A stretch of DNA of 64,000 nt from Lentisphaera profundi (GTDB lineage: Bacteria > Verrucomicrobiota > Lentisphaeria > Lentisphaerales > Lentisphaeraceae): NCBI RefSeq assembly GCF_028728065.1, contig NZ_CP117812.1:1860001-1924000 (forward strand), read 5' to 3'. Position 1 is the first letter of the stretch. The number at the start of each line of letters is the position of its first letter. The notes beneath the pieces were generated by a model. The model was not told the origin of the DNA. It was given only the letters and a program-made list of their open reading frames with translations, and made no database searches. Positions 2,558 through 16,699 of the stretch are shown piece by piece. A program made the translations under genes and the position numbers.

Positions 2558-2631
2558 GCTTTGGTAGCTCAGTAGGATAGAGCGACAGTTTCCTAAACTG
2601 TGGGTCGGCGGTTCGAATCCGCCCCAGAGCA
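2558..2631 (+). tRNA. tRNA-Arg (anticodon CCU)
   Basis: A 74-nt cloverleaf reads clearly. The 7-bp acceptor stem is GCTTTGG/CCAGAGC with discriminator A and one G-U pair. The anticodon stem ACAGT/ACTGT (2585-2589 and 2597-2601) closes the loop TTCCTAA, giving anticodon CCT at 2592-2594. The T-arm is CGGCG-GTTCGAAT-CCGCC-like with the normal TTCGAAT loop. CCA is not encoded. The 3' half, from the anticodon stem on, is the left attachment site of an integrated element, so the element restores an intact tRNA. Confidence 0.95.
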
Positions 2632-2634
2632 CTC
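2585..2634 (+). repeat. attL, left copy of the 50-bp attachment repeat
   Basis: The repeat begins at the anticodon stem (ACAGTTTCCT...) and ends 3 bases past the tRNA discriminator base. It is identical to 16650-16699; the flanking bases differ on both sides (G against C before, T against C after). The crossover must lie within this interval. Confidence 0.93.
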
Positions 2635-3046
2635 TTTTAAGCACAAACTTCACCTACATGCATTACATATTACAAGACAAATGATATGGACTTTAATAGG
2701 GACTAGCATCCCTACATTGCTAATGAAATCACACTTTTAGTTTATCACGCTAAATAAAGTTGTGTACCTTCGGATTTACATCGAGTTTTTTTAGAGGGTT
2801 AAGTATGCTAAATTCTTGTTTCGATATGGGGAATTTGAAAAAAGTTCGACCTATTCAATTATTAGCCATCAAAAACATATCAATTCACCCTAAGCAATCA
2901 GCTTTACGCTTACTCTGACGTAATAGATAAGTACGTATATCTAAGCTCAAAAATATTATATACGATAAAAACACAATTATGTACTCAATAAAACTGTGAA
3001 AATCAGTTAGAGCTTTTAGCTTACTAAGAATAACGGAGGATTCATA
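2635..3046. other. Non-coding left end of the element
   Basis: No gene with a plausible start and composition is seen. There is one perfect 6-bp hairpin, TAGGGA-ctagca-TCCCTA, near 2697-2714, and AT-rich DNA with short A/T runs. Integrase arm-binding sites could lie here, but none is recognisable by eye. The last bases carry GGAGG, the ribosome-binding site of the next gene. Confidence 0.5.
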
Positions 3047-4228
3047 ATGGATATAAGAACAACACACCGAACTAATTTAGACATGAGTTATAGATATAAA
3101 ATGAAACGATATATTTTTATATTGATTCTTATTGCATCTACCTGTAATGCTGTAGATGAAGATAAGATAAAAAAAGAAGTCTTAGCAGAGCTGAACCTTA
3201 AGGCTGTACCTACAGAAACTGATATATCTGACTACCTTATTCTTGTAGACAAATTGGTTAGTGAAAAATATCCAAAATCTGCATTAGAGGATTTAAAGAA
3301 GAAATTCAATTCAAAGTATCCAATCATTAAGATTGGTGACAATGTAGATCTACAATTAAATAATGTGAAAATTGAGGGTCAATTAAAGTCTGTTAGCAAA
3401 CAAACTATTATCATCGAAGACAATAGTTATTCATTAAATCTTTTTAGCAAAGACGTACAACTTAGAATAGATAAGAAGAAACGGTATGATTATTACAAGA
3501 AGTACCTAAATACACTTTACTATAAAAGGGTTAATACTTTTAAAGAGAGTCTTCTTCATTCTCCCAAAAACCCACGCAATGCTACAGATACACACCGTGC
3601 TTTACTTACTTCTAAGCTTAAAATGGCACACCAAAGAGAGTTTAAAGATCTTTACAATTCTTTCTTAAACGCAGATGAAATACCATCTAAGAGAAATAGC
3701 GCACAATTAACTAACGATTATTACACGAATCACTTTCGTTATTTAAAATCAGAATGCCCTCAAGATGTTAAAGATTATATTGACAACTTTGATGACGACA
3801 TTAAAAAGATAGACTCTAATCAACAGCTACAAGGATGGGTATTAGCGAGAGAAAAATTAAGATCTTGGTGTAAAAAAACTAAATATAAACCATTACCTCA
3901 AACAGGAGCTTCACGTTCACGTTCAGGATACGTACGCTCAATCCAAGCAGGTAGTGAAGATGCAAAGAGAAGAAGTATCGAGGTTAGGGCTCAGTTAGCT
4001 CATCTGAATAATCACATGGAACATTACATGCTTGATGATTATGAAACAAAATACATAAAAGAAAAGAATTCAGGTGATTGGATTTATCTTTTTGAAATAA
4101 CTACCCTAACATTGAAGTCGGGAGGTTCGAACATAGCTGGAGAAGCCTATGCCTATGTAACTATGACACCTATGGAAAGACAACTAAAATTTCAAGAAAT
4201 TAACATTAAATATCTCAAGACAAAATAA
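3047..4228 (+). CDS. Exported protein of unknown function
   Basis: 393 residues from an ATG preceded 7 bp upstream by a strong GGAGG. A signal peptide-like segment (MKRYIFILILIASTCNA) begins only at residue 19, so the ATG at 3101 is an alternative start giving a standard Sec signal. Residues about 85-130 read as beta strands of a small barrel (GDNVDLQLNNVKIEGQLKSV), like a short SH3- or Sm-like fold, followed by a Lys/Tyr-rich helical region and a C-terminal strand-rich part. Family not recognised. It is the first cargo gene of the element and is followed by a secreted-type nuclease in the same direction. Confidence 0.7.
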   Translation: MDIRTTHRTNLDMSYRYKMKRYIFILILIASTCNAVDEDKIKKEVLAELNLKAVPTETDISDYLILVDKLVSEKYPKSALEDLKKKFNSKYPIIKIGDNVDLQLNNVKIEGQLKSVSKQTIIIEDNSYSLNLFSKDVQLRIDKKKRYDYYKKYLNTLYYKRVNTFKESLLHSPKNPRNATDTHRALLTSKLKMAHQREFKDLYNSFLNADEIPSKRNSAQLTNDYYTNHFRYLKSECPQDVKDYIDNFDDDIKKIDSNQQLQGWVLAREKLRSWCKKTKYKPLPQTGASRSRSGYVRSIQAGSEDAKRRSIEVRAQLAHLNNHMEHYMLDDYETKYIKEKNSGDWIYLFEITTLTLKSGGSNIAGEAYAYVTMTPMERQLKFQEINIKYLKTK

Positions 4229-4333
4229 AGAGCAACAATTCTTCTACAATTAATCATTTAGATTCTATAGCTTTAAATTGAATAAAAGAATAAGTATTAC
4301 TCGTATCAATTATAGGTGAGATTGAAGTACACT

Positions 4334-5338
4334 ATGAAATCAATTATTAATAAACTCTTAGTAACCATCTTAATTGGTATAATTGGCTTTGTAGCCTATA
4401 GCAATAAAGACCAACTGCCAGAGATAGCTGAACGTACTAAAACTAAAGCTGTTGAAGTCAGTGAATCCGTTAGTACTGCAATCAACAATAACTCTCCTAA
4501 AGCCACTCCTAACAAGGTAGTCCAAGAAGAATCTAATTACGAGACAACTGATAAGCGATTAAAGAGCGGTTACAAGCCAATCGTGCTCACTGAGAGCTAC
4601 GAGCATGACAAATGGACTACTGAGCCACAAGAACTCGTCAGAGAGTTTAGAGCCTACATTGTGAGCTTTGATGATAACTCTGACAATATATTAACCCGTA
4701 ACCCCGACTGGGTAGCATACGAGATGAGAGCTAAACCTTCAAACATGCCTGATGGTAAAGCTCCTAATCGTCCTTCTACTTGGATTGAAGATGATAAATA
4801 CAACGATGAAGCACCCCATGATAAATCATATTTACACAGTGGCTTTCATAGAGGTCACTTATGTATGAAACATATTGCTTGGAGGCTGGGAGCTAATGCT
4901 GATTGGAATACTCACACGACAATTAACGCTTCTCCACAACACGCTAAGTTCAATACTGGTGTTTGGTTAGATATGGAGAATAAAACCAAAGACTGGGCTG
5001 ATGAGTACGGGCGAATATGGGTTATATGTGGTGGTGCTTATAAAGATAAGAAACCCTCTCTATGGATTGGTGATGAAGGCGAAGAAAGAGTTGCAGTACC
5101 TGAATACTTCTGGAAGATCGTTATTCGCTTAGATGGTGAAGAAATTAAATCATTGGCTTTTATGTATCCACACAAGGACATTAAAAAGAGTCTTACCACT
5201 AAGAAGTACTTTCATGCTAGATATTTAACGTCAATAAATGATATTGAAGACTCAACTGGGTTAGATTTCTTAACTACGATTGAAGACGAAAAAGAAGAAG
5301 TCATTGAAGCATTGATTGCTACTGATATTTGGAAGTAA
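4334..5338 (+). CDS. Membrane-anchored DNA/RNA non-specific endonuclease (DRGH family)
   Basis: Start chosen at the ATG at 4334 (334 residues); an in-frame GTG at 4316 is possible. Residues 7-22 form one hydrophobic segment, either an anchor or an uncleaved signal, putting the rest outside the cytoplasm. A linker runs to about residue 75, then the Endonuclease_NS domain. The motif HRGHL (172-176) corresponds to the D-R-G-H active site with H175 as general base; here the first position is His rather than Asp. The metal-binding Asn region is TTINASPQHAKFNTGVW (N198, N207). Such enzymes cut DNA and RNA without sequence preference. A decayed tail of a second such enzyme lies at 6065-6145. Role could be nutrient scavenging, attack on neighbours, or DNA degradation; not decidable here. 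Confidence 0.87.
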   Translation: MKSIINKLLVTILIGIIGFVAYSNKDQLPEIAERTKTKAVEVSESVSTAINNNSPKATPNKVVQEESNYETTDKRLKSGYKPIVLTESYEHDKWTTEPQELVREFRAYIVSFDDNSDNILTRNPDWVAYEMRAKPSNMPDGKAPNRPSTWIEDDKYNDEAPHDKSYLHSGFHRGHLCMKHIAWRLGANADWNTHTTINASPQHAKFNTGVWLDMENKTKDWADEYGRIWVICGGAYKDKKPSLWIGDEGEERVAVPEYFWKIVIRLDGEEIKSLAFMYPHKDIKKSLTTKKYFHARYLTSINDIEDSTGLDFLTTIEDEKEEVIEALIATDIWK

Positions 5339-5394
5339 ACACTAACCATACTTTTATATAAAATTAGAATATTAGCTAAAAAAGGAAATATAAT

Positions 5395-5916
5395 ATGAAA
5401 TACATTTTAATTATTTTAATTATTGCTTTTACAACAAGTTGCTCTTCATGGTCAACACAACTTAAATACCGTAAACAAAGTTATATTCCTGGATCAAACA
5501 GAGCTGTCATTGGCTATGATGAAACAAAAATCAGTGACTTGCGATATGAAGTGTATGCAGGTCAAGCATGGCCTAAGGACTATCATAACCTACATAAGGT
5601 TGCTTTATACAGAGCCGCAGAATTAACACAAGAGCACGGTCATAATTTTTTCTACATTATTGATCAAGATATGAGCATGCAGCATTACGGGATGCCTATC
5701 TATCAAAACACTCATACCAATGGCTACATAAATGATAATACATTATATTTAAACAGTCATACAACAACAACAGGCGGAGGAACTATTTCTGGAGGTAAAT
5801 ACTACTTAGACTTCCTCATTGTGCCTGACTATAAAACAGAAGGATTCGACAATATCATTTCAGCAGAAAAAGTAATAAAATCACTTAAATATTTTATAGA
5901 CAGAAGACGCAACTAG
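5395..5916 (+). CDS. Small lipoprotein, unknown function
   Basis: 173 residues with an AAAGGA ribosome-binding site. The N-terminus MKYILIILIIAFTTSCSS is a short hydrophobic signal ending in a cysteine, typical of a lipoprotein although the lipobox is not a perfect LxGC. The mature part contains YDETKISDLRYEVYAGQAWPKDYHNLHKVALYRAAELT and a Thr/Gly-rich loop (TTTTGGGTISGG). The N-terminal arrangement (a short family with AAELT...GHNFFYIID) resembles small outer-membrane stress lipoproteins but I cannot name one. It sits 56 bp after the nuclease and between it and the remnant of a second nuclease, so a partner or inhibitor role is conceivable (inference only). Confidence 0.7.
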   Translation: MKYILIILIIAFTTSCSSWSTQLKYRKQSYIPGSNRAVIGYDETKISDLRYEVYAGQAWPKDYHNLHKVALYRAAELTQEHGHNFFYIIDQDMSMQHYGMPIYQNTHTNGYINDNTLYLNSHTTTTGGGTISGGKYYLDFLIVPDYKTEGFDNIISAEKVIKSLKYFIDRRRN

Positions 5917-6064
5917 AAAATCTATCGCTATAATAAAAGACCGTTTTTACCCCGTACTACGGCTCAATCGGTAAGTTACAGCTATAAAGAACACTCTGAC
6001 TTAATAGGGATTTGTGAAAAATTAGACGACCCCAAAACTATTGGAGATATTATCGAAGACTCTT

Positions 6065-6145
6065 ACAGGTTTAGATTTTTTGACTAAGCTTGAGGATGAG
6101 AAAGAAGAGGAAATTGAAGGCCTAATCTCCAGTGAACTGTGGTAA
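6065..6145 (+). pseudogene. Remnant: C-terminal tail of a second DRGH-type nuclease
   Basis: Translating from 6065 gives 26 residues, TGLDFLTKLEDEKEEEIEGL then ISSELW, then TAA. This matches the last residues of the nuclease at 4334-5338 (TGLDFLTTIEDEKEEVIEAL, IATDIWK). No matching frame for the rest of the enzyme is found between 5917 and 6064, so only the tail survives. The DNA differs at several positions, so it is a diverged paralogue and not a recent exact duplication. Confidence 0.8.
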
Positions 6146-6172
6146 TAAATTAATAATGAAAACCATAAAATA

Positions 6173-6937
6173 TTAAATATACTTAATTAAGTAAAGACTA
6201 ATAGTTCCACAGCCAACTAAGAAAAATAATAACGTTAGATAACCAATTACTAGTTGTATATTTCTTAGAGTCATTTCGATAGTTAATAATTTTTTCTTAT
6301 CGTCAGCTTTCCTGTTGTTTGAATCTTGATCGCTAAAATTATGACCCTTAGATATTGGGAATAGATCCTCGGTTACTCTATCTTTGTTGTTAGCCCAGTT
6401 CTTATCAATAGTATTAATGAGAAAATCATATTTTTCAGAAGCTAAATTATAATTTTGATTACAAGCTGATTTAAAGTAGAGTAAGAACTCATTCTGTAAG
6501 CTATTGAAGTCATTTAAAGAATTTATGAATCCTTCATCATCCTTCTTTTGTAACTTGGATAAAACATAATTAGAAAAGGTAAAATCGGCAAGACTAAATA
6601 CGAGTGTTGCTATTAACATAAATATCCCAAACTGAAAATCGTTTGTTACAACTAAATAAGGGGAGTTATTGACAGTAGTAAACGCAAATAGGATATACCC
6701 CACAGAGATCGTTATGATCATTTGATCTTTGGCTTTATTATTATTAGAAAATGCGCTAGCAGTTCTATCGTGATTACTATTATGTTGATTAGTTAAGTTA
6801 AGACGCTCATTAGCAAAGGCGTTTCTAATTGCGATATCATTTTGAGCTTTATAGTAAAAATCATCTTTTAGTCGGTTAGTTTTCTCAAGCTCTAACTTTA
6901 TTAACTCTATTTTTTTCTTAAACTCTTCTTCAGTCAT
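6173..6937 (-). CDS. Membrane protein with N-terminal coiled coil, unknown
   Basis: 254 residues, strong GGGAGAGGAAAAG ribosome-binding site. Residues 1-35 are a charged helix (FKKKIELIKLELEKTNRLKD). Two adjacent hydrophobic segments lie around residues 72-115 (MIITISVGYILFAF and FGIFMLIATLVFSLADF), then a long polar, mainly helical loop, and a last membrane segment (VIGYLTLLFFLVGCGTISLY) close to the C-terminus. Family not recognised. It is transcribed opposite to the nuclease and lipoprotein genes before it. Confidence 0.7.
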   Translation of the reverse strand: MTEEEFKKKIELIKLELEKTNRLKDDFYYKAQNDIAIRNAFANERLNLTNQHNSNHDRTASAFSNNNKAKDQMIITISVGYILFAFTTVNNSPYLVVTNDFQFGIFMLIATLVFSLADFTFSNYVLSKLQKKDDEGFINSLNDFNSLQNEFLLYFKSACNQNYNLASEKYDFLINTIDKNWANNKDRVTEDLFPISKGHNFSDQDSNNRKADDKKKLLTIEMTLRNIQLVIGYLTLLFFLVGCGTISLYLIKYI

Positions 6938-7277
6938 CTTTTCCTCTCCCTATTTCGTTTCACGAATATAACAGGCTTTGGGCAAAAAAAACTCAACTCC
7001 TAATTAAAAGAGCTGAGAAATCGCAGAGGATTAATCTTTGTTTTTAGATTGTTATTGTATTGAGAATTGGCGTATTAATATTGACGACCTTACAATCTTT
7101 CAAAAACTTATTGCGTGCGATCATATAAGCTTTGTGTCTGTCGCTTTATCTGTGATAACCACAACATGAGAGTACCCATTAAAACTCTCTATTCATCTGT
7201 ATAAACCTTCTACACAGCTATTTATCTGAAGAATATTAATAGTTACATACCTATATTCTACCCTACCCATAAATGGT
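6938..7277. other. Intergenic, no gene seen
   Basis: Divergent promoter region between the leftward membrane protein and the rightward gene at 7414. It is AT-rich. An imperfect hairpin (CTCAACTC and GAGCTGAG) lies near 6991-7017. No conserved reading frame is visible. The 3' part joins the duplicated segment starting at 7278. Confidence 0.5.
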
Positions 7278-7408
7278 TCAAAACTTAGAGGCGAGCTAGT
7301 TTTATACAAACACGCTTCAATTCGAGAATATTAAATCTATTCATTCAAATCTTTTAACTACAGGATTTTGAAAAAGGGGCTAAGTTGGGAGTAATCAAAA
7401 AAAGGGAA
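7278..7408 (+). repeat. Duplicated leader segment, copy 1
   Basis: About 130 bp, similar to 11606-11738. Shared blocks include TCAAAACTTA, GGCGAG, TATTCATTC, then ACTACAGGATTTTGAAAAA and GGGA(G/A)TAAT. In this copy it ends at the ribosome-binding site of the membrane protein gene at 7414. In the other copy it lies upstream of a decayed or small gene. It may be a leader or promoter region that was duplicated with its genes. Confidence 0.75.
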
Positions 7409-7413
7409 AGGAA

Positions 7414-7848
7414 ATGGATATACTAAATACTTTAGTGACCGTACTGATAGCAGTATCTGGAGCTAGCTACTTCTTAGCTAGACAAAGTGACAAAGTATAC
7501 ACAATGGCAAGAAAAACATTTATGTGGCCAATGATAGTTTTAGCTTTTTTTCTTTGTATAAAATATGCAGAGCGAATAAGTCCATTAAGTAAATGGATAA
7601 GTTATGATTATTTCTTTGATACCGACATCAAAAGAGAAGAACTAAAAAGCATTATTGAATTAGAATCAGACAAGGTAGAAATTAAATTAAAAATAATTTC
7701 CCTAGAAAGAGAAATCGCAGAATCCAATAGAGATAGAATAAGAATAGGTTTATCTATATTAGGTATTTTATATGCTTTTATTATGTTTGGCATTATAGGG
7801 AGTATACATAATTCACAAGATAGAATTGCTAAAGCTAATAAAACATAA
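7414..7848 (+). CDS. Small membrane protein, unknown
   Basis: 144 residues with GGGAAAGGA as ribosome-binding site. Hydrophobic segments are at about 5-22 (TLVTVLIAVSGASYFLA), 36-50 (FMWPMIVLAFFLCIKYA) and 112-130 (IGLSILGILYAFIMFGIIG), with a charged coiled-coil region (LKIISLEREIAESNRDRIR) between the last two. No family recognised. The lipoprotein gene starts 13 bp downstream with its own strong ribosome-binding site, so the two are likely co-transcribed. Confidence 0.75.
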   Translation: MDILNTLVTVLIAVSGASYFLARQSDKVYTMARKTFMWPMIVLAFFLCIKYAERISPLSKWISYDYFFDTDIKREELKSIIELESDKVEIKLKIISLEREIAESNRDRIRIGLSILGILYAFIMFGIIGSIHNSQDRIAKANKT

Positions 7849-7861
7849 TAAAAGGAGGGAG

Positions 7862-8218
7862 ATGAACAAAACAATAGCATTCATACTCATGCTTCTTTTT
7901 GTCTCATGCAGTGAACCCAAGCTAGATGAACTCACTTTGGACTACTCCAGTGAAGAGGCCATGAATGATAGCTTTAGTGATATTTATGCAACTCTTACTA
8001 AGGAGCAATGGCAGAGGTTTATGCAAGTGCTTTCGACCGTCACCCAAAACGAGATAAAGAAGCTCATGCCAATGGAAAAGAAGCTATCTTCAGAAGAATG
8101 GAATCAACTAATCTACGATATTAGGCAAAAAGCCTTTGATGGCAAGAGTGTCAAAGAAATACTTGATATGCAAAAGGCCCTTCACGGTAAAAGGGTAATT
8201 GACTTGATTGAGCATTGA
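7862..8218 (+). CDS. Small lipoprotein; paralogue of the fragment at 12562
   Basis: Start taken at the ATG after AAAGGAGGGAG, the best ribosome-binding site in the element; 118 residues. The signal MNKTIAFILMLLFVSCSEP ends in a probable lipidated cysteine. The mature part has two copies of a weak motif, LTKEQWQRF and LSSEEWNQL, each followed by a helix, and ends KALHGKRVIDLIEH. The same motifs occur in the 66-residue reading frame at 12562-12762. Function unknown. Confidence 0.8.
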   Translation: MNKTIAFILMLLFVSCSEPKLDELTLDYSSEEAMNDSFSDIYATLTKEQWQRFMQVLSTVTQNEIKKLMPMEKKLSSEEWNQLIYDIRQKAFDGKSVKEILDMQKALHGKRVIDLIEH

Positions 8219-8266
8219 TTGCTAATTAAGTTTGGTGAATAAATAAAAAACAATGGAGTATGATAG

Positions 8267-8668
8267 ATGAGTATTGATACATTATGCACAAGTTGTGGTG
8301 ATGTTGTAAAGTCGGAGCAATCAATGATCGGCTTAACTATGGACTGCCCTTACTGTGGCAATGCATTTGAAGTTTCACCTCGCAGAGACTCACAAGCAAG
8401 CAAAGTCAACAATAAGACTTCTACGCTAATAAACTGTGAATCCTGTAACAAAAGTATCTCACCTGAAGCACACGCTTGTCCATCATGCGGTCATCCTAAC
8501 AAGAAGATACAGAAGAAAGCAAAAAACAAAGAGTACGACAATAAACAAAGAAGTGGCTGTCTTCTATTGTTACTCGGCTTAGTTGTTGGCGCATTTAACC
8601 CCACTATAGGTGGTATCATGGTTGTGATTGGAATTATTATAGCAGTCATAAATACAAGAGTTACATAG
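8267..8668 (+). CDS. Double zinc-ribbon membrane protein
   Basis: 133 residues. Two CxxC pairs make a first zinc ribbon (CTSCG, CPYCG, residues 7-30) and two more a second (CESCNK, CPSCG, residues 57-76). A Lys-rich linker follows, then hydrophobic segments from about residue 100 (CLLLLLGLVVGAF and IGGIMVVIGIIIAVI). The zinc ribbons probably face the cytoplasm. Such proteins are common and usually lack a known function. It follows the lipoprotein gene by 48 bp in the same direction. Confidence 0.75.
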   Translation: MSIDTLCTSCGDVVKSEQSMIGLTMDCPYCGNAFEVSPRRDSQASKVNNKTSTLINCESCNKSISPEAHACPSCGHPNKKIQKKAKNKEYDNKQRSGCLLLLLGLVVGAFNPTIGGIMVVIGIIIAVINTRVT

Positions 8669-8783
8669 TGATTACTATTATTTCAACTAGGATGATGAAG
8701 TAGTATTGATTGCTAGGGAAATTTGGTAAGTACTAGAATAGGTTTATTAACATGATTATAATGCGAATAAACTATTTACAGTT

Positions 8784-9266
8784 TTACCGATCATTAACCT
8801 TTTTTGCTATTAAATCTCTAAGTCTTGCTATAAGTAATTCTTGTGCATATTTTTTTTCTATGGATCTTTCTTTAGCAATTACACTAGCTTTTTGTGACCT
8901 CTCTTTTTTTTCAAGCTCCTTGGCCTCTCTATGGATACCTTCAATCACTTTCAGACTCTTCTTTTTAACTCGAGTAAAAATAACCTCTGTCATATAAACT
9001 AAGTGTTTCCCATCTTTCTTTACTGAATCTTTAAAACTATCCGAGAGTTGAATATCTCTCTTGAGATTAAGGAACCATCTCTGTATATCACGCCGACCTG
9101 CTATACAGAATATAATAATAATAGGTAAGGAGAAGCTCAGTATAATTGCTAACGTCTCATTTGCATCCTCTAAGCCAATCGCCCCAAATAACCAGCTAAA
9201 ACCAAGCATACTCGCCATCATCAAGAGCATTAGTACTCCGCCAAAAAAATCATCCTTACGACTCAT
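8784..9266 (-). CDS. Membrane protein with C-terminal coiled coil, unknown
   Basis: 160 residues. Two hydrophobic segments (GVLMLLMMASMLGFSWLFGA and LAIILSFSLPIIIIFCIAG) occupy residues 9-56. The remaining hundred residues are highly charged and helical (IHREAKELEKKERSQKASVI), likely a cytoplasmic coiled coil. The ribosome-binding site is weak. Family not recognised. It lies downstream of, and in the same direction as, the 620-residue endonuclease-like gene, with 73 bp between them. Confidence 0.65.
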   Translation of the reverse strand: MSRKDDFFGGVLMLLMMASMLGFSWLFGAIGLEDANETLAIILSFSLPIIIIFCIAGRRDIQRWFLNLKRDIQLSDSFKDSVKKDGKHLVYMTEVIFTRVKKKSLKVIEGIHREAKELEKKERSQKASVIAKERSIEKKYAQELLIARLRDLIAKKVNDR

Positions 9267-9339
9267 TACACTACCATTTTATAATATTAACACCATCAAA
9301 TACAAATGAAGTTTAAATAATCATATTGATTTAAACCAG

Positions 9340-11202
9340 TTATTTCCCAATAGCTTTAATGATACGATCTTCTTGAATCAATACATCCCTTAACAATAAC
9401 TTATAAGGAAAGGTTTTATGCTTTGTAGTAGACTTAAAAGCCTCTAAAATCTTTAGTAAAGATTCGGCTGTAATCAATGATAAATTAAGTTCATATTCTT
9501 CAGCCGTCTCTTCTACAAAATCTTCGCTAAAATCAGGAGCTACTAAAAGCGACTTAATAATCTTACAATCCATACCCTCTGCCAATTTAGTATATGACTG
9601 CATCTGCCTTGAAACCGCACTGAATTTATTATATCCGCTCTCTTTGATAGTCTTACACTCGACAAGAATAAGTTCATTATTACCCAAGTTCAGCAATATA
9701 TCAATTTTATCTTTCTTTGTGTTAAGCTCTTTCTTTAAAACCTCATCCACATTGAAACCTAATTGCTCAAAAATTGATTTGGTTAAATCCTCAAATTTAA
9801 TTCCTAATTCTGCTTCTTTGATTACAATACCATTCTCTTTTAGTTCATTTAGATTTCTAAAACCAATATTTGCATAGTTCTCCAAATAAAGGTTTTCAGA
9901 GTCTTTATAACCATCTAATATATTTTGAATATTATCTCCACGCACTTTCAGCTCTCTATCTTTACAGAAAGCTTGTAACTCCACGCCGTTAATTAAATCT
10001 AAAATATCTCGAGGTTTAATATTATAATCGAGTAAAAGATCACTTTTCAAAACAACTTCTTCTTGTAACTCAAATTCATTTTTAACGGCTAAATTTAATT
10101 TAGGCAAGAAATCTCCCAAATCAGTCAGTAATTGTTCATAACCATCAATCGAAATACCTACTTTATCGTCTCTCTCTACCTGCTCAAAGTGTAAGATTAT
10201 ATTATAGATTTTCTCCTCTAAAGTCACTCCTTTTAAAGGTGTATCATATTTTAAATTCACACTCCACAAGTCATTAATAGTCTTCTTTTTACTCGTTAGA
10301 TTTGATCCTTCTTTATGAATTTCTTCTGACAGAAAACTAGAAAAAGAGATCCCCTCTTCTATGACACTTCTAATTTTTGCTTCATGATCTAGAGATTTAG
10401 TATTTATATTATGCCTTCTGCATACTGCATTTATCTGAGGTTCTTTAATACTCCGTAATACTCTTCTAAAGAATTTATCGGCAATCTCTTTTTCTCTTAC
10501 ACATCTTAAAAGCTTAACCATTTCATCTGCTATATAGATGGTGCTAGTTTTTTTAGATATGAAAATAATACCTAAATTTTTCAGCTCAGCCAACACTTCG
10601 TCAATTTCAGCTTTCTGGGGTGGTAGTACGTTATAATTCATCAACCTTACTTCACTCTGTGTGAATTCCATTTCTTTAGCTAAGGTCAATAAAATAGATA
10701 ATTCATCATCTGTAATTTTTGCTTCTCTATTAGAGGCTAGATCATTATTGAAAGCTGTAAATATACAGGCTTTGTATATACTATAATCTCTCTTTCTAAT
10801 ATCACTTAAATCTGATTTAGGATTCTCGATATCAGCTTCTAATTCTTTGATCTTCAAACTCAAAGTTTTTAATTCCTTTTCGTAGAGTCTCGCAAACCAA
10901 TCTTGTTTCATAATGCAATTACCATCCCTGATGATGATATCAATCAATATATCTAATTGAGAAGCAATATTTACAAATTCAGAATTTATTTTTTGGAGAA
11001 ACTCATCTTCCACTAAAGAAAAAATCTTTGATATAACTACATTATCTAATCCTTTTAGACCCGATTTATCTGTATCTGAAATAAGCTTATCTATAGCTTT
11101 GATATTTTTAGGTTTTGCTCCAATAATACCGTCTATTACTTTAATAAATGAGTTTTTTTCTAACGAATTTAAGTTATTTAAGATTTTCTCTAGTTTCATC
11201 AC
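9340..11202 (-). CDS. Large protein with C-terminal restriction-endonuclease-like domain
   Basis: 620 residues. The C-terminal third carries a PD-(D/E)xK nuclease signature: a helix with FEDL near residue 465, KIDILLNLGNNELILVECKT around 500-518 (acidic D, then E-x-K), then a Gln/Tyr helix (SRQMQSYTKL). This is the Mrr-like or related restriction-endonuclease fold. The N-terminal 440 residues are mostly helical, with a possible winged-helix part near 205-240 (EIDEVLAELKNLGIIF), and not recognised. It has no methyltransferase neighbour. A defence or DNA-processing role is a reasonable inference from fold and location in a mobile element, but no specific system is recognised. Confidence 0.75.
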   Translation of the reverse strand: MMKLEKILNNLNSLEKNSFIKVIDGIIGAKPKNIKAIDKLISDTDKSGLKGLDNVVISKIFSLVEDEFLQKINSEFVNIASQLDILIDIIIRDGNCIMKQDWFARLYEKELKTLSLKIKELEADIENPKSDLSDIRKRDYSIYKACIFTAFNNDLASNREAKITDDELSILLTLAKEMEFTQSEVRLMNYNVLPPQKAEIDEVLAELKNLGIIFISKKTSTIYIADEMVKLLRCVREKEIADKFFRRVLRSIKEPQINAVCRRHNINTKSLDHEAKIRSVIEEGISFSSFLSEEIHKEGSNLTSKKKTINDLWSVNLKYDTPLKGVTLEEKIYNIILHFEQVERDDKVGISIDGYEQLLTDLGDFLPKLNLAVKNEFELQEEVVLKSDLLLDYNIKPRDILDLINGVELQAFCKDRELKVRGDNIQNILDGYKDSENLYLENYANIGFRNLNELKENGIVIKEAELGIKFEDLTKSIFEQLGFNVDEVLKKELNTKKDKIDILLNLGNNELILVECKTIKESGYNKFSAVSRQMQSYTKLAEGMDCKIIKSLLVAPDFSEDFVEETAEEYELNLSLITAESLLKILEAFKSTTKHKTFPYKLLLRDVLIQEDRIIKAIGK

Positions 11203-11605
11203 ATCCCCTAAGATTAATTATACTCCACTAGCATTTATTAAGTGGCAATAGCTTTTATGCATAGAACATAAAGGAAAATCTGTAATCACTCAAGTCTTTT
11301 TTAATAAAACTAGTCCTGATACATCACTAATTTCTACTATTATTACAGTTATTAACTCCATAATCAGTAGCTAGTTTACTCGTAACTAACTAAGTCTAAA
11401 TTTAACTTATTTATATCCTTTTGTATTATAATTAAATAGCAAATTACTAACCCTAGTAAAAATAAGCATATAAAGTTGATTTTAGTTAAGTAAGTCATAA
11501 TGGCATTAAATCCTTTATGAAGTAAAATATGTTTTTAATACATCCTGCTATCATGAAATATTTAATGATATGATTTATATCACCTCTAGACCTCTATGAA
11601 ATCAC
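11203..11605. other. AT-rich intergenic region, no gene seen
   Basis: Together with the next repeat this forms a 670-bp gap upstream of both the leftward nuclease-like gene and the rightward small gene. It contains many A/T runs and short imperfect dyads but no frame with a ribosome-binding site. Promoters for the leftward gene must lie here. Confidence 0.5.
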
Positions 11606-11738
11606 TCAAAACTTACGGGCGAGTTAGTTAGGGTTTATTTATTTTAAAATGGGGAATTTTAAATTTATTCATTCCAATCTTTGAACTACAGGATTTTGAA
11701 AAATGGGCGAAGGTGGGAATAATTAAAAGAAGGGATGA
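11606..11738 (+). repeat. Duplicated leader segment, copy 2
   Basis: Second copy of the segment at 7278-7408, in the same orientation. The most conserved part is ACTACAGGATTTTGAAAAA at 11690-11708. Downstream lie a small frame (11874) and, about 800 bp on, the truncated paralogue of the lipoprotein at 7862, which suggests the whole module was copied and then decayed. Confidence 0.75.
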
Positions 11739-11873
11739 AACTGAGGGTGAAACCGAGACTAGAACAACCGACAAGAGTAGAGCCAAGACCCATTGGCCCA
11801 AGACCATCCTAGCAGGTAACTAAGCCACACACCGTTGAAACATCATCATAGCTAAAAAAAGGACTAAATACTA

Positions 11874-12083
11874 ATGAAAACACTACTGGCTGGCGCTCCT
11901 CATTCGAGTGATTACCAATATGATTATACTGGTGAATCTCGATATGAAGGCTATAACGGGAGATTAACGGGGGGCTCAAGTGAGTCTTCAGGAAATAGCG
12001 ATTTTTGGATGTTTGCTATCATCTTAGTGATTGCTCTATGCCTTAAATCTAAGCCAGTTTGGGCTAAAAAAAAGGACTTGTGA
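11874..12083 (+). CDS. Short membrane-spanning protein, possibly frameshifted
   Basis: 69 residues. A polar Gly/Ser/Tyr-rich N-terminus is followed by one hydrophobic segment (FWMFAIILVIALCL) and a basic end. The frame stops just after a run of eight A at about 12066-12073. In another frame the sequence stays open for some 38 more codons to 12192, reading TKLFKSLGEGFYWVLDLLRM, so a longer gene may have been broken by an A-run slip. Family not recognised; it may be non-functional. Confidence 0.35.
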   Translation: MKTLLAGAPHSSDYQYDYTGESRYEGYNGRLTGGSSESSGNSDFWMFAIILVIALCLKSKPVWAKKKDL

Positions 12084-12561
12084 ATTCACCAACGACACAA
12101 CAAAGCTGTTTAAAAGCTTGGGCGAAGGTTTCTACTGGGTGCTAGACCTGCTGAGAATGAATAACCATTCCAAACAAATACCAACCCGATAGTGAGGGGG
12201 GGGATGCCCCAGAAGCTCCATCCATATATACTAATCCACCCCATACAAAATTATACGATTTTTCAAAACACGATACAGGCTAGTCCACCCCCAAAAGCAG
12301 GAAAGGGAAAGTCCAGGTTATTTGTAAATCATATAACCATTCCCTAGGGTCACGGCATGTTTTTATTTGGGGTGTTTTAGAGCCAAGTCTATAAAAGTTC
12401 CGAGATCTCCAGTATAGAAATTAGTGCTAGGGTCTTTCTTTCGGATAGACTTGTCGTCTTTGTATCCATGAGATTGGGCCACTCCATTAATTGCATATAT
12501 ACTTACATGCACACGCTAGGGATAAAAGACATAGAGCGCAGAGGCTAGACAGGCTAACTTA
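12084..12561. other. Gene-free stretch between two small frames
   Basis: Contains the possible frameshifted continuation of the previous gene (to 12192), a run of eight G at about 12196-12203, and DNA with longer G and C runs than the rest of the element. No convincing gene. It occupies the place where the 5' half of the truncated lipoprotein paralogue would be expected. Confidence 0.45.
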
Positions 12562-12762
12562 GTGGAGATTAAATCGAAGCTTACAAGCGAGCAGTGGCAG
12601 AAGTTTCAAATGGCAAAAGCTAATATCACTACCGAGGCATGCAGGAAATACATCAAAGAAGGTAAGGCGCACTCAAGTGAAGAGTGGGACGCTCTAGTAA
12701 ATGAGATTACCAAAGAAGCCTTACACGGCAAAAGGGTTATTGACTTGATCGAGATAGATTAA
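12562..12762 (+). pseudogene. 5'-truncated paralogue of the lipoprotein at 7862
   Basis: 66 codons from a GTG, with no good ribosome-binding site and no signal peptide. It reads LTSEQWQKF ... SSEEWDALVNEITKEALHGKRVIDLIEID, matching LTKEQWQRF ... SSEEWNQLIYDI and KALHGKRVIDLIEH of the gene at 7862-8218. The lipoprotein N-terminus is missing. It could be translated as a short cytoplasmic protein, but loss of the export signal argues for a remnant. Confidence 0.65.
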
Positions 12763-12836
12763 TAGTATCTATTATTGACACTGAAGCCTCATAGATTGCT
12801 CTACAATAGCTTTTAAATATCGTTAACTTATTTTGC

Positions 12837-14186
12837 TTACGCTATCAACTCTTGCTCAAATTTAACCTCATAGCCTGTTTTACTGAAAACTAAGTTCTCA
12901 ATGAATGAAGTATCGACCTCATTTAATATAATAAGTCCATCGTGCATATTTACTTGGATATTCTCATTGCCTAAATACTCTTTAACAAAACTCATTATAA
13001 ATTGCTCTTTATTTTGATAGTACCAAGATATTTGCTCAGGCCTGTTTAATCTATGCGAAGGGTAATTATCAAATTCTAGATTTTCATAAACACACTTAAT
13101 ATCGCTAAGTAAACCTTTATATAATTCATGTGCCTTGAGTTTCTCGATATATTTCCCTGCCTGCTCAAAATTACATTGCATTAACGACATTATATTTAGT
13201 CTGTAATCATTCTTTTTCTTTGCTGGCTTATGTTTATGTACCTCACCACCAAACACTAAAGGCATAATCGTAGATTTTATGAACTTTATAGAGTTACCAT
13301 CACTTCGATGAAATATATCATTAGACAGTTGTTCTCTTACTATTTTTCTATCATTCACCATCATAGAAAGGTAAGGCAGATTGTCTCCAGTTTGGCGTGA
13401 GTAATCTTGGCTTAATATTGTATGTGCACAAGCTTCAATATCAATTGACCTCATCCCTTTACATATTTCATTACGGAATCGCTTAGGTTTGTTTTGTATG
13501 TGAGCTGATGTGATACCATACATCCTACCTGTGTCGGTTTTACAGTGCTTATAAGGCTGTATAATCTTATTCTCATTCACAAAGCCTTTATGCTTGGCTA
13601 TATAGAAATGCATATCCAGTGAATCGATGAATTTAACTTCGGGCAAATTAAAGAATGTATTAACCAAGTGTTTGTCAGTAGGAGGTTGTTTAATATCTAA
13701 CTCCTTAATAGCACAGGATTTCGACCAATCATTATTATCTGTTATAGATCGTCTATAGTTACCTGATAGACTAATTCGCATTTTTATATCCTGTAATGCT
13801 TTCTGGAACTCAACTGTAGTCTTCCAAGTTGAGCCATGACCAGCCATTAAAGACTTACTCATTTTTGTGTTACGCCCTACTAAATCACGATATATCAAAT
13901 TATTAATAGCAGATTCCCTCGCAATCAATTTCTTGTACTCTGTTGCGCCAAAATTTAATTTAAGGTCTTTGTGGTAAAAATAATAAGCACCATCAATAAG
14001 CTGATGTTGAATTTCCTCTTTATCATCAAGGATAGACTGCACAAGCCTTATAATACTTCGAGAAATAATTCTATTATTTAAAGCTTTACTACCATCTATG
14101 TATTTGGTTAAAATATACATAACAATAGGTTCATCAAGGATATGAGCACTAAACTCAACATCTCTTATTCTACTACAACCACTCAT
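12837..14186 (-). CDS. Divergent family-A-fold polymerase (TV-Pol-like)
   Basis: Start chosen at the ATG at 14186, eight bases after GAGGGG, giving 449 residues; a GTG lies three codons upstream. The C-terminal half carries the three palm motifs in order. TDTGRMYGITSAHIQNKP (217-234) matches the T-x-T-G-R-L...L-Q-N-I-P block of PolA. Motif A is SIDIEACAHTIL with D249, lacking the usual Q-I-E-L-R. Motif B is KFIKSTIMPLVFGG (301-314). Motif C is NMHDGLIIL with H415-D416, where PolA has HDE and T7 RNA polymerase HDS. There is no 3'-5' or 5'-3' exonuclease domain. The family related to both PolA and T7-type RNA polymerases and found in transposons and viruses (TV-Pol) fits best. It likely replicates the element. 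DNA- versus RNA-polymerase activity cannot be decided from sequence. Confidence 0.75.
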   Translation of the reverse strand: MSGCSRIRDVEFSAHILDEPIVMYILTKYIDGSKALNNRIISRSIIRLVQSILDDKEEIQHQLIDGAYYFYHKDLKLNFGATEYKKLIARESAINNLIYRDLVGRNTKMSKSLMAGHGSTWKTTVEFQKALQDIKMRISLSGNYRRSITDNNDWSKSCAIKELDIKQPPTDKHLVNTFFNLPEVKFIDSLDMHFYIAKHKGFVNENKIIQPYKHCKTDTGRMYGITSAHIQNKPKRFRNEICKGMRSIDIEACAHTILSQDYSRQTGDNLPYLSMMVNDRKIVREQLSNDIFHRSDGNSIKFIKSTIMPLVFGGEVHKHKPAKKKNDYRLNIMSLMQCNFEQAGKYIEKLKAHELYKGLLSDIKCVYENLEFDNYPSHRLNRPEQISWYYQNKEQFIMSFVKEYLGNENIQVNMHDGLIILNEVDTSFIENLVFSKTGYEVKFEQELIA

Positions 14187-14294
14187 TCCACACACCCCTC
14201 TAATCCTCTTCTATTACATAAGGATGAAGTTATGGATAACTTACTGTAAATCATATTCTTATGACTTAAATTAAGAAGTGTCATGATAACCACA

Positions 14295-14645
14295 CTATCT
14301 AGAACGAGTTAGCATGTTCTTTAACTTACCCTCTAGATGATAAACCGCAGTTTCAAGTTGATTAATTGAGCATCCCTCAAACAAAATTGTTTTGTGGTGA
14401 GTGAAATCTTCAATAGTCAGACCTTTTTTGTCCAGTGGACATCCTTGGTTGATATCCGTGGTGGACATTTTGGGTGGACATCCTTGGTGGACATTTTTAG
14501 GTTTCGAAGTGGACATTTTTAGGTGGACATTTTTTATTGTCCTTTGAACTGTCTTGACACTTACATCTAGTTCTTTTGCAATCTGTTTGTGAGTCATAGA
14601 AGAAGACATTTCTATGATTTTAATATTCCTCTTTTTTTTATCCAT
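14295..14645 (-). CDS. Helix-turn-helix protein, candidate replication initiator or regulator
   Basis: 116 residues, AGGA ribosome-binding site. Residues 17-37 (TQ-like MTHKQIAKELDVSVKTVQRT) are a clear helix-turn-helix of the resolvase/HTH_23 type. The next part is internally repetitive (KMSTSKPKNVHQGCPPKMST) because its DNA contains six copies of an 8-bp word (see the repeat entry). The C-terminus is helical (INQLETAVYHLEGKLKNML). It is followed after about 108 bp by the polymerase gene in the same direction. Placement and embedded repeats suggest an initiator that binds within its own gene; a plain repressor is the alternative. Confidence 0.65.
   Translation of the reverse strand: MDKKKRNIKIIEMSSSMTHKQIAKELDVSVKTVQRTIKNVHLKMSTSKPKNVHQGCPPKMSTTDINQGCPLDKKGLTIEDFTHHKTILFEGCSINQLETAVYHLEGKLKNMLTRSR
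14435..14530 (+). repeat. Six iteron-like repeats, candidate replication origin
   Basis: The word GTGGACAT occurs at 14435, 14461, 14474, 14487, 14509 and 14523. Start-to-start distances are 26, 13, 13, 22 and 14 bp. Copies are followed by either CCTTGG or TTTT. All lie inside the helix-turn-helix gene, on its non-template side. Regular spacing near one and a quarter helical turns, and an AT-rich tract just beyond the last copy, are what iteron origins show. Confidence 0.6.
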
Positions 14646-14788: not shown

Positions 14789-15052
14789 TTAAGCTGTTAA
14801 TCTTTCTATCTCAGAATGTTTAATACGAGTGATTCCGCCTATCTTTACTGCACCTACTTCACCACGTTCAATTAAATTCCACACATGGCGTGATGAACAA
14901 TGTAACTTATCAGCAACTTCTTTGATCTTGTAGAATTGCTCAAAGTTTGACGTTTCATTACTCTCAAGAATCGAGAGCTTTTGTAGTGTTAAATTAGGGA
15001 TATGGTCTTTCAGGATATTTTTTGCTGTTTCAAATGCTTGACTCTTATTCAT
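14789..15052 (-). CDS. Excisionase-like DNA-binding protein (HTH_17/MerR type)
   Basis: 87 residues with AAGAGGCAG as ribosome-binding site. The second half, YKIKEVADKLHCSSRHVWNL then IERGEVGAVKIGGITRIKHS (residues 41-80), is the winged helix-turn-helix of excisionases and related HTH_17 proteins. Such proteins bend att-site DNA and direct the integrase toward excision, and often also repress. It lies between the integrase gene and the replication genes, the usual position. Confidence 0.75.
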   Translation of the reverse strand: MNKSQAFETAKNILKDHIPNLTLQKLSILESNETSNFEQFYKIKEVADKLHCSSRHVWNLIERGEVGAVKIGGITRIKHSEIERLTA

Positions 15053-15281: not shown

Positions 15282-16538
15282 CTATGCTTTCAGAATTTGA
15301 TTCTTAATTGTTTCCCAGTTCTCAGAATTCATTTGAGAAACAAGTTTTTTAACTTCTTCGAGACTCATTGCTTTTCCCTCGTCAGATAGTTTCATTATCT
15401 GCTGTTGAGTCATTTCTGCATCTATATTTGTGTAATGGCGAGTCATTGCTGTATTACTATGGCCTACTACCTCTTGCACTATTGCTAGAGGTACACCTGC
15501 TTTCGCACAATCCGAAACAAATGTGTGCCTAAGACTATGAAAGCCTACTAAACCCAGTTCGTCAGAACTAATCTTTGCATCCTTAAATGCTTTTTTAAAG
15601 TCTTTCTTAAGATTGGATCTATGCGACAAATAACGTGAAGATAATGAGGGTAAGATGTATTCGGACTCATCACTATAACCAAACAACTTCAATTCACGTT
15701 TAAGCTGTGATATGATAGGCATATTCACGTATTGATTATATTTCGCAGTCTTTGCTGGTTTTATATGAATACTATTTGTAGTAAAATCAATATTCTCCCA
15801 TTTACATAAAACTGCGTCTTTAAGCCTCATGCCTGTATAAACCGCAATGGCAAATAACAACCTTAATTCACCCTCTGTAGCTTCTAGTAATCTATCAACT
15901 TCTTCTTTAGTGAAATTACGTCTAGATGTCCTTTCTACGGTTCTACTACCCATATTCTGAAAAGGATTTGAGTTTAAATTAGCTGTATCCATTAATGTTT
16001 TTATTATACATCTACACTTATTAATAATGCGATTATAATTTGAATCCGAATGAACTCTTATTTTTTTTTCATCTAAACGTAATAGATGTTTGCCAAATTC
16101 TTTCACATCATTTGCCATGATTTCATGTAGGTATACTTCTTCACCAATAAAGGATACAAATAATTCCCAATGGTGTTTATACTGCCTTATCACCTCATTT
16201 GATGGAGTAGGTCTATCTGGCTCAGCAAGAAACATCCGAAAAGCTTCAGCCATTTTTATATCCTTACCTGTGTGCCTATCCAATACTTTTTTAATGGAAT
16301 CAATTTGCTCTGACTTTAAACCTTTACTTTTAGCTACTGCTTCAATGAAGTCACCTTTAGACTCAAGGTCATTGTGTAAAGCCATGAATTCTTTGGCTTT
16401 TATTTCAGCTTCTTCTTTATTAGTTACTCGTAGACTTTTTTGCTTAAGTTTACCATCCATGTAATACTGTATATAATAATACTTACTTTTCTTATTCTTA
16501 AAAAGTGTCCCATCACCCTTTCTTCTACGCTGTTTCAT
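15282..16538 (-). CDS. int: Tyrosine recombinase, element integrase
   Basis: 418 residues. An N-terminal arm-binding-type region with strands (YYYIQYYMDGKLKQKSLRV), a core-binding domain around 95-185, and a C-terminal catalytic domain. Catalytic residues seen: R238 (TGMRLKD), a Lys near 263-266, H334-x-x-R337 (HSLRHTF), H360 (VVGHSN) and the nucleophile Y369 (TRHYTNID). All are intact, so the enzyme should be active. It lies 111 bp inside attR and reads inward. It joins attP to the 3' half of tRNA-Arg(CCU). Confidence 0.95.
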   Translation of the reverse strand: MKQRRRKGDGTLFKNKKSKYYYIQYYMDGKLKQKSLRVTNKEEAEIKAKEFMALHNDLESKGDFIEAVAKSKGLKSEQIDSIKKVLDRHTGKDIKMAEAFRMFLAEPDRPTPSNEVIRQYKHHWELFVSFIGEEVYLHEIMANDVKEFGKHLLRLDEKKIRVHSDSNYNRIINKCRCIIKTLMDTANLNSNPFQNMGSRTVERTSRRNFTKEEVDRLLEATEGELRLLFAIAVYTGMRLKDAVLCKWENIDFTTNSIHIKPAKTAKYNQYVNMPIISQLKRELKLFGYSDESEYILPSLSSRYLSHRSNLKKDFKKAFKDAKISSDELGLVGFHSLRHTFVSDCAKAGVPLAIVQEVVGHSNTAMTRHYTNIDAEMTQQQIMKLSDEGKAMSLEEVKKLVSQMNSENWETIKNQILKA

Positions 16539-16649: not shown

Positions 16650-16699
16650 ACAGTTTCCTAAACTGTGGGTCGGCGGTTCGAATCCGCCCCAGAGCACTC
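16650..16699 (+). repeat. attR, right copy of the 50-bp attachment repeat
   Basis: Identical to 2585-2634, containing the anticodon stem-loop and T-arm halves of tRNA-Arg. The upstream part of the tRNA is absent, so this copy is not a gene. It is the original chromosomal 3' end displaced by integration. Confidence 0.93.

Follow-up and report, generated by a model that had tools for sequence, protein, structure and literature searches.

A TV-Pol-type polymerase as the probable primase-polymerase of a 14-kb integrative element in a tRNA-Arg gene of Lentisphaera profundi

The window (the whole 64-kb stretch of Lentisphaera profundi DNA that was analyzed) contains a gene for a 449-amino-acid family A polymerase of the TV-Pol type (12837..14186, minus strand), which is carried by a 14-kb element integrated in a tRNA-Arg gene. 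The protein family, the family fold, the catalytic residues, the ends of the element, an iteron array, and the gene order were computed. The reading that we favor, and hold to be probable, is that the enzyme serves as the primase-polymerase of this element, which would be self-replicating.

The open reading frame is intact, running from an ATG at 14186 to a stop at 12837, and is identified by its motifs and by profile matches; an alternative GTG start would extend it to 14195..12837 (452 amino acids), and the plus strand across it contains many stops. The sequence AGAGGGG, upstream of the ATG at 14186, is a plausible Shine-Dalgarno element. Motif A reads RSIDIEACAHTIL, with SIDIEACAHTIL at D249; motif B has K304 in NSIKFIKSTIMPLVFGG together with F312-G313; a further motif stretch includes Q391 and E394; and motif C is QVNMHDG (H415-D416-G417), with MHDG at D416. 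The first-pass annotation had described a 449-residue protein with an unusual motif A at D249 and MHDG at D416, all of which is as claimed, on the minus strand, which it left unstated. It overlooked TGRMYG..SAHIQNKPK (R221), the counterpart of TGRLSS..PNLQNIP in PolA, and TGR...QNKPK is the strongest single signature in the protein. None of the models in Pfam, PHROG, or NCBIfam matches the polymerase, and the scans against these three collections revealed no exonuclease or other nuclease domain, bearing out the earlier statement that no exonuclease is attached. A PDB sequence search with the polymerase gave nothing relevant. The L. profundi genome carries a normal chromosomal PolA, and a second copy of the element polymerase was not found in it.

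Scans of viral and genome collections with the single protein returned nothing, and relatives emerged from alignment scans that used the conserved motifs. The tblastn matches to the polymerase were confined to two plasmids of Polaromonas, pW9NP1 and pH8NP1, whose polymerases are 21-23% identical to the window protein over the palm. From these plasmids, a chain of relatives leads to a Desulfovibrio phage and on to gp30 of the Microcystis phage Ma-LMM01 and its sister phages, and it also reaches viral contigs and one Comamonadaceae metagenome-assembled genome (MAG); the identity of the window protein to any relative is only about 14-27%. A profile of nine relatives, including Ma-LMM01 gp30 and excluding the window protein, finds the window ORF at E=8e-16 among 4756 ORFs (next unrelated ORF, 0.3), and the window protein alone matches this profile with a probability of 96.7% (P=4e-10). 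Ten residues are invariant in the ten aligned proteins: G220, R221, D249, K304, G313, Q391, E394, H415, D416, and G417. With catalytic residues invariant in ten proteins and a leave-out profile match of this strength, the motif pattern exceeds chance. In the tree, a long branch leads to the window protein, whose neighbors (support, 91/85) are two stand-alone proteins from phages, 385 and 394 amino acids in length. The paper defining the family (PMC2579912) names Ma-LMM01 as having a TV-Pol, and the gene of this phage matched by the present searches is gp30. The assignment of the polymerase to the TV-Pol family is well supported, and an earlier placement in this group is upheld by the profiles that link the protein to Ma-LMM01 gp30.

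Among the features by which TV-Pols are recognized, the palm has its two catalytic aspartates in D249 and D416, both invariant in the ten aligned proteins, and the conserved arginine of the beta-hairpin corresponds to R221 in the invariant TGRMYG, aligned to TGRL of PolA. In the RxxxK motif of the fingers helix, K304 is invariant and position K-4 is Ile; each of the 11 relatives tested, among them Ma-LMM01 gp30, likewise has a residue other than Arg there. The protein gave no nuclease match, the nucleases of the element sit in its cargo part, and the context of the gene is mobile, with a tyrosine integrase gene (15282-16538) and 50-bp att repeats. A linked or fused D5-like helicase was not found, as there is no helicase among the element ORFs; such a helicase is a trait of one TV-Pol subset, and the subset linked to integrases or resolvases has been described separately (PMC2579912).

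The genomic settings of the relatives are varied. The stand-alone TV-Pol-like proteins of 385-394 amino acids that are nearest in the tree are encoded on phage contigs (L085:2643-6663 and L086:5419-6603), and the one in L085 has a probable helicase gene nearby. On the 7.2-kb plasmid pW9NP1 (L002:37-2497), the polymerase gene, annotated as hypothetical, lies about 10 bp upstream of repA. Its counterpart on pH8NP1 (L003:6095-7600) bears the label of a Clp protease N-terminal domain protein, which probably arose by misannotation from a weak Clp_N match. A viral contig of 10864 bases (L010) encodes a TV-Pol, ParA, and, as judged by eye, terminase-, portal-, and capsid-like proteins, and resembles a small phage-plasmid. 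A 6.5-kb stretch of the Comamonadaceae MAG (L014:1636-8178) combines a TV-Pol gene with a tyrosine integrase gene and, again by eye, an AbiE-like pair, and is probably another integrated TV-Pol element. Other genomes of the class contain two divergent PF00476 polymerases of about 665 and 626 amino acids (L079 and L080) that do not show the standard motif A, DxSxxExR, and may be additional family A polymerases carried by elements. Two weak genome matches were rejected as relatives, one being a topoisomerase/gyrase B protein (L005) and the other a short match with stops (L004).

When the family was searched against PDB sequences with hmmsearch, no real match came up; the relation to PolA was found by profile-profile comparison. 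In hhalign, the family matched a profile composed of the host-clade PolA, two divergent copies, and the DNA polymerases of phages T7, SP6, and phiKMV at P=4.3e-5. The alignment pairs TGRMYG..SAHIQNKPK with TGRLSS..PNLQNIP, the two motifs A with each other, K...FG with K...YG, the residues around Q391 with PIQG, and HDG with HDE. Reversed-profile controls gave P values of 0.64-0.85, and the comparison score of 50.8 stands against a maximum of 21.8 in 100 column shuffles. The corresponding comparison with a phage RNA polymerase profile (T7, SP6, and phiKMV RNAP) gave no signal, its score of 20.7 lying below the shuffled maximum of 21.0. Of the profiles proposed as checks, PolA and TV-Pol were thus matched, and the phage RNA polymerases stayed at the level of shuffles; a motif order and spacing suited to PolA or T7 RNA polymerase had been claimed earlier, and the profiles link the protein to PolA. 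Structural evidence for the fold comes from a relative. The AlphaFold model of the window protein, built from five alignment rows, has a pLDDT of 44, too poor for fold comparison, whereas that of the relative from the phage-plasmid-like viral contig (seven rows) reaches 72 and matches Klenow (E=4e-8; TM, 0.38), as well as Pol I, apPol, Pol theta, T7 DNA polymerase, and then, more weakly, T7 RNA polymerase. Among viral models, it matched phage proteins that are uncharacterized, along with replication proteins from the Zamilon and Qinghai Lake virophages. The TM-scores are modest (about 0.4-0.5) and support a fold class rather than a close match. A family A fold of the window polymerase is therefore supported by way of the modeled relative.

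These comparisons bear on the suggestion that the protein is a T7-like RNA polymerase of the single-subunit kind, with transcription of the element as its role. That role would agree with the Ala at D+5, where PolA has its steric-gate glutamate, and with the Met at K+4, a residue shared with T7 RNA polymerase, which is also among the weaker fold matches of the modeled relative. We nonetheless regard it as extremely unlikely, given a phage RNA polymerase score that shuffled profiles equal, the PolA-type TGR...QNxP and IQG in register, and a length of 449 amino acids, in which a promoter-binding domain such as T7 RNA polymerase possesses would find little space.

The active-site residues would predict relaxed sugar choice. 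Position D249+5, which corresponds to the ribonucleotide-blocking glutamate of PolA (E710 of Escherichia coli Pol I [PMC9324360]), is Ala here and in the two nearest relatives, and His in most others; K304+8 is Phe, and K304+4 is Met. Every family member has Gly directly after HD. Since a PolA-type phage enzyme with Ser at this position is active (PMC9324360), Gly there does not imply inactivity. The same residues enter into the question of whether the gene is a decayed, inactive relic, as the long branch, the divergent motif C glycine, and the missing motif B arginine could suggest. HDG and the absence of the RxxxK arginine are, however, common to every relative and are thus traits of the family, and the 449-amino-acid frame is open with all catalytic residues kept; a relic is very unlikely on this evidence.

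The element that carries the polymerase is bounded exactly. Its left end, attL (2585..2634, plus strand), is a 50-bp direct repeat that forms the 3' part of tRNA-Arg(CCT) (2558-2632), as found by repeat and tRNA searches, and its right end, attR (16650..16699, plus strand), is an exact second copy beside the integrase gene. On the minus strand, the genes follow in the order of the tyrosine integrase (15282..16538; 418 amino acids; adjoining attR), an excisionase-type HTH protein (14789..15052; 87 amino acids; HTH_17, with TIGR01764 over the cutoff), a second HTH protein (14295..14645), and the polymerase. The GC content is 33% inside the element and 40% outside. Two congeners lack the element at this locus: their sequence agrees on the smpB-tRNA-Arg side but differs on the right flank, and neither congener offers a perfect empty site. 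The acceptor strand of the tRNA-Arg reads GCTTTGG, compared with GCTCTGG in the two congeners, which gives a wobble pair with the 3' end contributed by the att repeat. The nearest integrases are only 31-35% identical to that of the element. A tRNA-integrated element with its own HTH and integrase genes, as proposed in the first-pass annotation, is thus real, with a 50-bp repeat, two HTH genes, and a tyrosine integrase. Among the element ORFs, scans found no helicase, D5 ATPase, recognizable single-stranded DNA-binding (SSB) partner, capsid, or relaxase.

The cargo region (2635..12800) encodes nucleases, small membrane proteins, and lipoproteins. A DNA/RNA nonspecific endonuclease with an N-terminal hydrophobic segment (4316-5338, plus strand) matches PF01223 at E=1e-34, and an Mrr-like protein of 620 amino acids (9340-11202, minus strand) has a weak C-terminal Mrr endonuclease match. 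The latter matches phrog_34709, of unknown function, over its full length (E=3.5e-108) and has no tblastn match among phage records. Two related plus-strand ORFs (12562-12762 and 7826-8218) share the ending HGKRVIDLIE and represent a DUF6694-type protein and a shorter copy, a duplication within the element. With conflict-type genes of this kind in the element, the polymerase might itself be anti-phage or abortive-infection cargo, and stand-alone polymerases such as the Abi reverse transcriptases do act in defense (PMC11077055). This we consider very improbable: the polymerase found no match in a defense library and belongs to the int-xis-HTH block outside the cargo, and its relatives reside on plasmids beside repA or parA and in phages.

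The gene adjoining the polymerase encodes a 116-amino-acid HTH protein (14295..14645, minus strand) with Homeodomain-like/HTH_23 matches over the Pfam cutoff and is a candidate for an origin-binding initiator. Inside this gene, six iteron-like repeats of ATGTCCAC (14435..14530, minus strand) form a candidate origin. The copies (GTGGACAT) start at 14435, 14461, 14474, 14487, 14509, and 14523, with spacings of 26, 13, 13, 22, and 14; the protein consists of an N-terminal HTH followed by an iteron-encoded stretch. The repeat is translated as KMST, NVH, and GCP, with two copies per reading phase; because it is read in all three frames, selection on the protein offers no explanation, and the repeats are a DNA signal. 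In 2000 synonymous recodings of the gene, no 8-mer exceeded four copies and six were never reached; the cluster is the only one in the 64 kb in which a non-simple 8-mer has at least four copies per 120 bp, and none of 60 resampled elements reached four copies. An AT-rich gap (14196..14294; 30% GC) between the HTH and polymerase genes may be a region of strand opening. No exact DnaA box occurs between 11000 and 17000. In 289-388 genomes (a sample of the phylum), plasmids, phages, and viral contigs, no relatives of the HTH gene or the array were recognized beyond chance HTH matches, so the role proposed for them rests on one sequence. Directly beside other TV-Pol genes, no iteron clusters were seen; elsewhere they were found only on pH8NP1 (after repA) and on L016.

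From this arrangement, a route of replication can be proposed. The integrase and the Xis-like protein would recombine the 50-bp att repeats and excise the element as a circle, after which the HTH protein, as putative initiator, would bind the six iterons inside its own gene and open the neighboring AT-rich DNA in the manner of lambda O. The TV-Pol would then start and extend strands at the opened DNA, with the host providing the helicase, which would need to be recruited, and bulk synthesis. We infer these steps of excision, iteron binding, priming, and circle replication. The precedent is CCPol, the TV-Pol of SCCmec, which can extend primers on its own but starts strands de novo only together with its partner MP (PMC7581432, PMC10061031), a partner role that the HTH protein could possibly fill. 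The position of the pW9NP1 polymerase gene directly upstream of repA is a further case of a polymerase coupled to an initiator and lends support to the proposed route. The weak points of that route are that a helicase and a counterpart of the OB-fold partner (MP of CCPol) are absent among the element genes, and the long branch, the low pLDDT of the protein's own model, and the absent RxxxK arginine speak against the reading as a whole.

The absence of a helicase and of any proven Rep protein would also be expected if the enzyme were a genuine TV-Pol-type DNA polymerase engaged in repair, whether in gap filling after integration, recombination-associated synthesis, or translesion synthesis, with the element copied passively or, once excised, by host enzymes. 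The Polaromonas TV-Pol plasmids also carry a full RepA initiator, so that the polymerase need not initiate, and on pH8NP1 it is repA that is followed by the iteron-like cluster. We judge a repair role to be unlikely, as the adjoining HTH gene with its iterons points to an origin carried by the element, autonomous replicons and phages repeatedly encode TV-Pols, and the one TV-Pol that has been studied is a primase (PMC7581432). We therefore retain the primase-polymerase as the preferred interpretation. A bolder form of it, offered tentatively and as something less than probable, would make the element a family A counterpart of pipolins: a helicase-free, tRNA-integrated replicon whose entire apparatus for initiation would be two adjoining genes, one for an HTH initiator and itself the iteron origin, the other for a priming TV-Pol in which the small residue at the steric gate (Ala at D249+5), with Phe at K304+8, would allow a start with either ribonucleotides or deoxynucleotides.

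The occurrence of TV-Pols beside lambda-type integrases, and in verrucomicrobia, was reported in 2008 (PMC2579912), in a paper that also proposed that virophage replication enzymes derive from this group. The family A primase of SCCmec was proven biochemically in 2020, at which time CCPol was the only TV-Pol studied in this way (PMC7581432), and relatives in elements of Bacillota were surveyed in 2023 (PMC10061031). The pipolin concept covers self-replicating elements integrated in tRNA genes that use a family B enzyme (PMC7385651). The class of element is accordingly less new than the earlier description of a poorly described class of replicating element suggested, the association of TV-Pol with integrase having been known since 2008 (PMC2579912). 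New here are a divergent TV-Pol invisible to databases, an exactly bounded helicase-free element, and a candidate origin inside the neighboring gene. Pfam, NCBIfam, and PHROGs miss such enzymes, and one of the nearest named relatives is labeled a Clp N-terminal protein. The element is a small, sharply bounded case from outside Bacillota in which polymerase, candidate initiator, and candidate origin lie within about 1.8 kb, and this compactness opens the old prediction of TV-Pols acting as primase-polymerases of their own elements to direct test.

The TV-Pol family, described by Iyer, Abhiman, and Aravind in 2008 (PMC2579912), includes the enzymes of Ma-LMM01, Sputnik V13, and SCCmec (CCPol). 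The window protein resembles it in the two aspartates of its palm, the arginine of its hairpin (GR), the lysine of its fingers, its lack of a nuclease domain, its size range (400-600 amino acids), its residence in an integrase-bearing mobile element, and its detectable homology to Ma-LMM01 gp30. It differs in lacking an adjacent or fused D5 helicase, in having Ala at the steric-gate position in place of the His found in most relatives, and in lacking the R of RxxxK, which is likewise missing in Ma-LMM01 gp30. With the PolA-SSB primases of SCC-like elements (CCPol-MP; PMC7581432, PMC10061031) the element shares an element-encoded family A polymerase, its own site-specific recombinase, and a proposed role in priming; SCC-like elements, however, belong to Bacillota, have a helicase and an OB-fold partner, and mostly use large serine recombinases, whereas the present element has a tyrosine integrase in tRNA-Arg, no helicase, and no recognized partner. 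Pipolins (PMC7385651) are similar in their integration into tRNA genes, tyrosine recombinase, excisionase-like gene, att direct repeats, and own polymerase, but theirs is a primer-independent family B enzyme (piPolB) unrelated to the family A polymerase described here. As in phage lambda, where ori-lambda lies in the O gene (PMC5043065), iterons are found inside the gene of a DNA-binding protein; the likeness is one of arrangement, the repeats here have 8-bp cores 13-26 bp apart, and the initiator function is putative. The nearest named relatives of the polymerase are carried by the RepA_C plasmids pW9NP1 and pH8NP1 of Polaromonas (PMC6015842), which, unlike the element, are autonomous, encode RepA and ParA, and have longer polymerases (501-538 amino acids) annotated as hypothetical or Clp_N.
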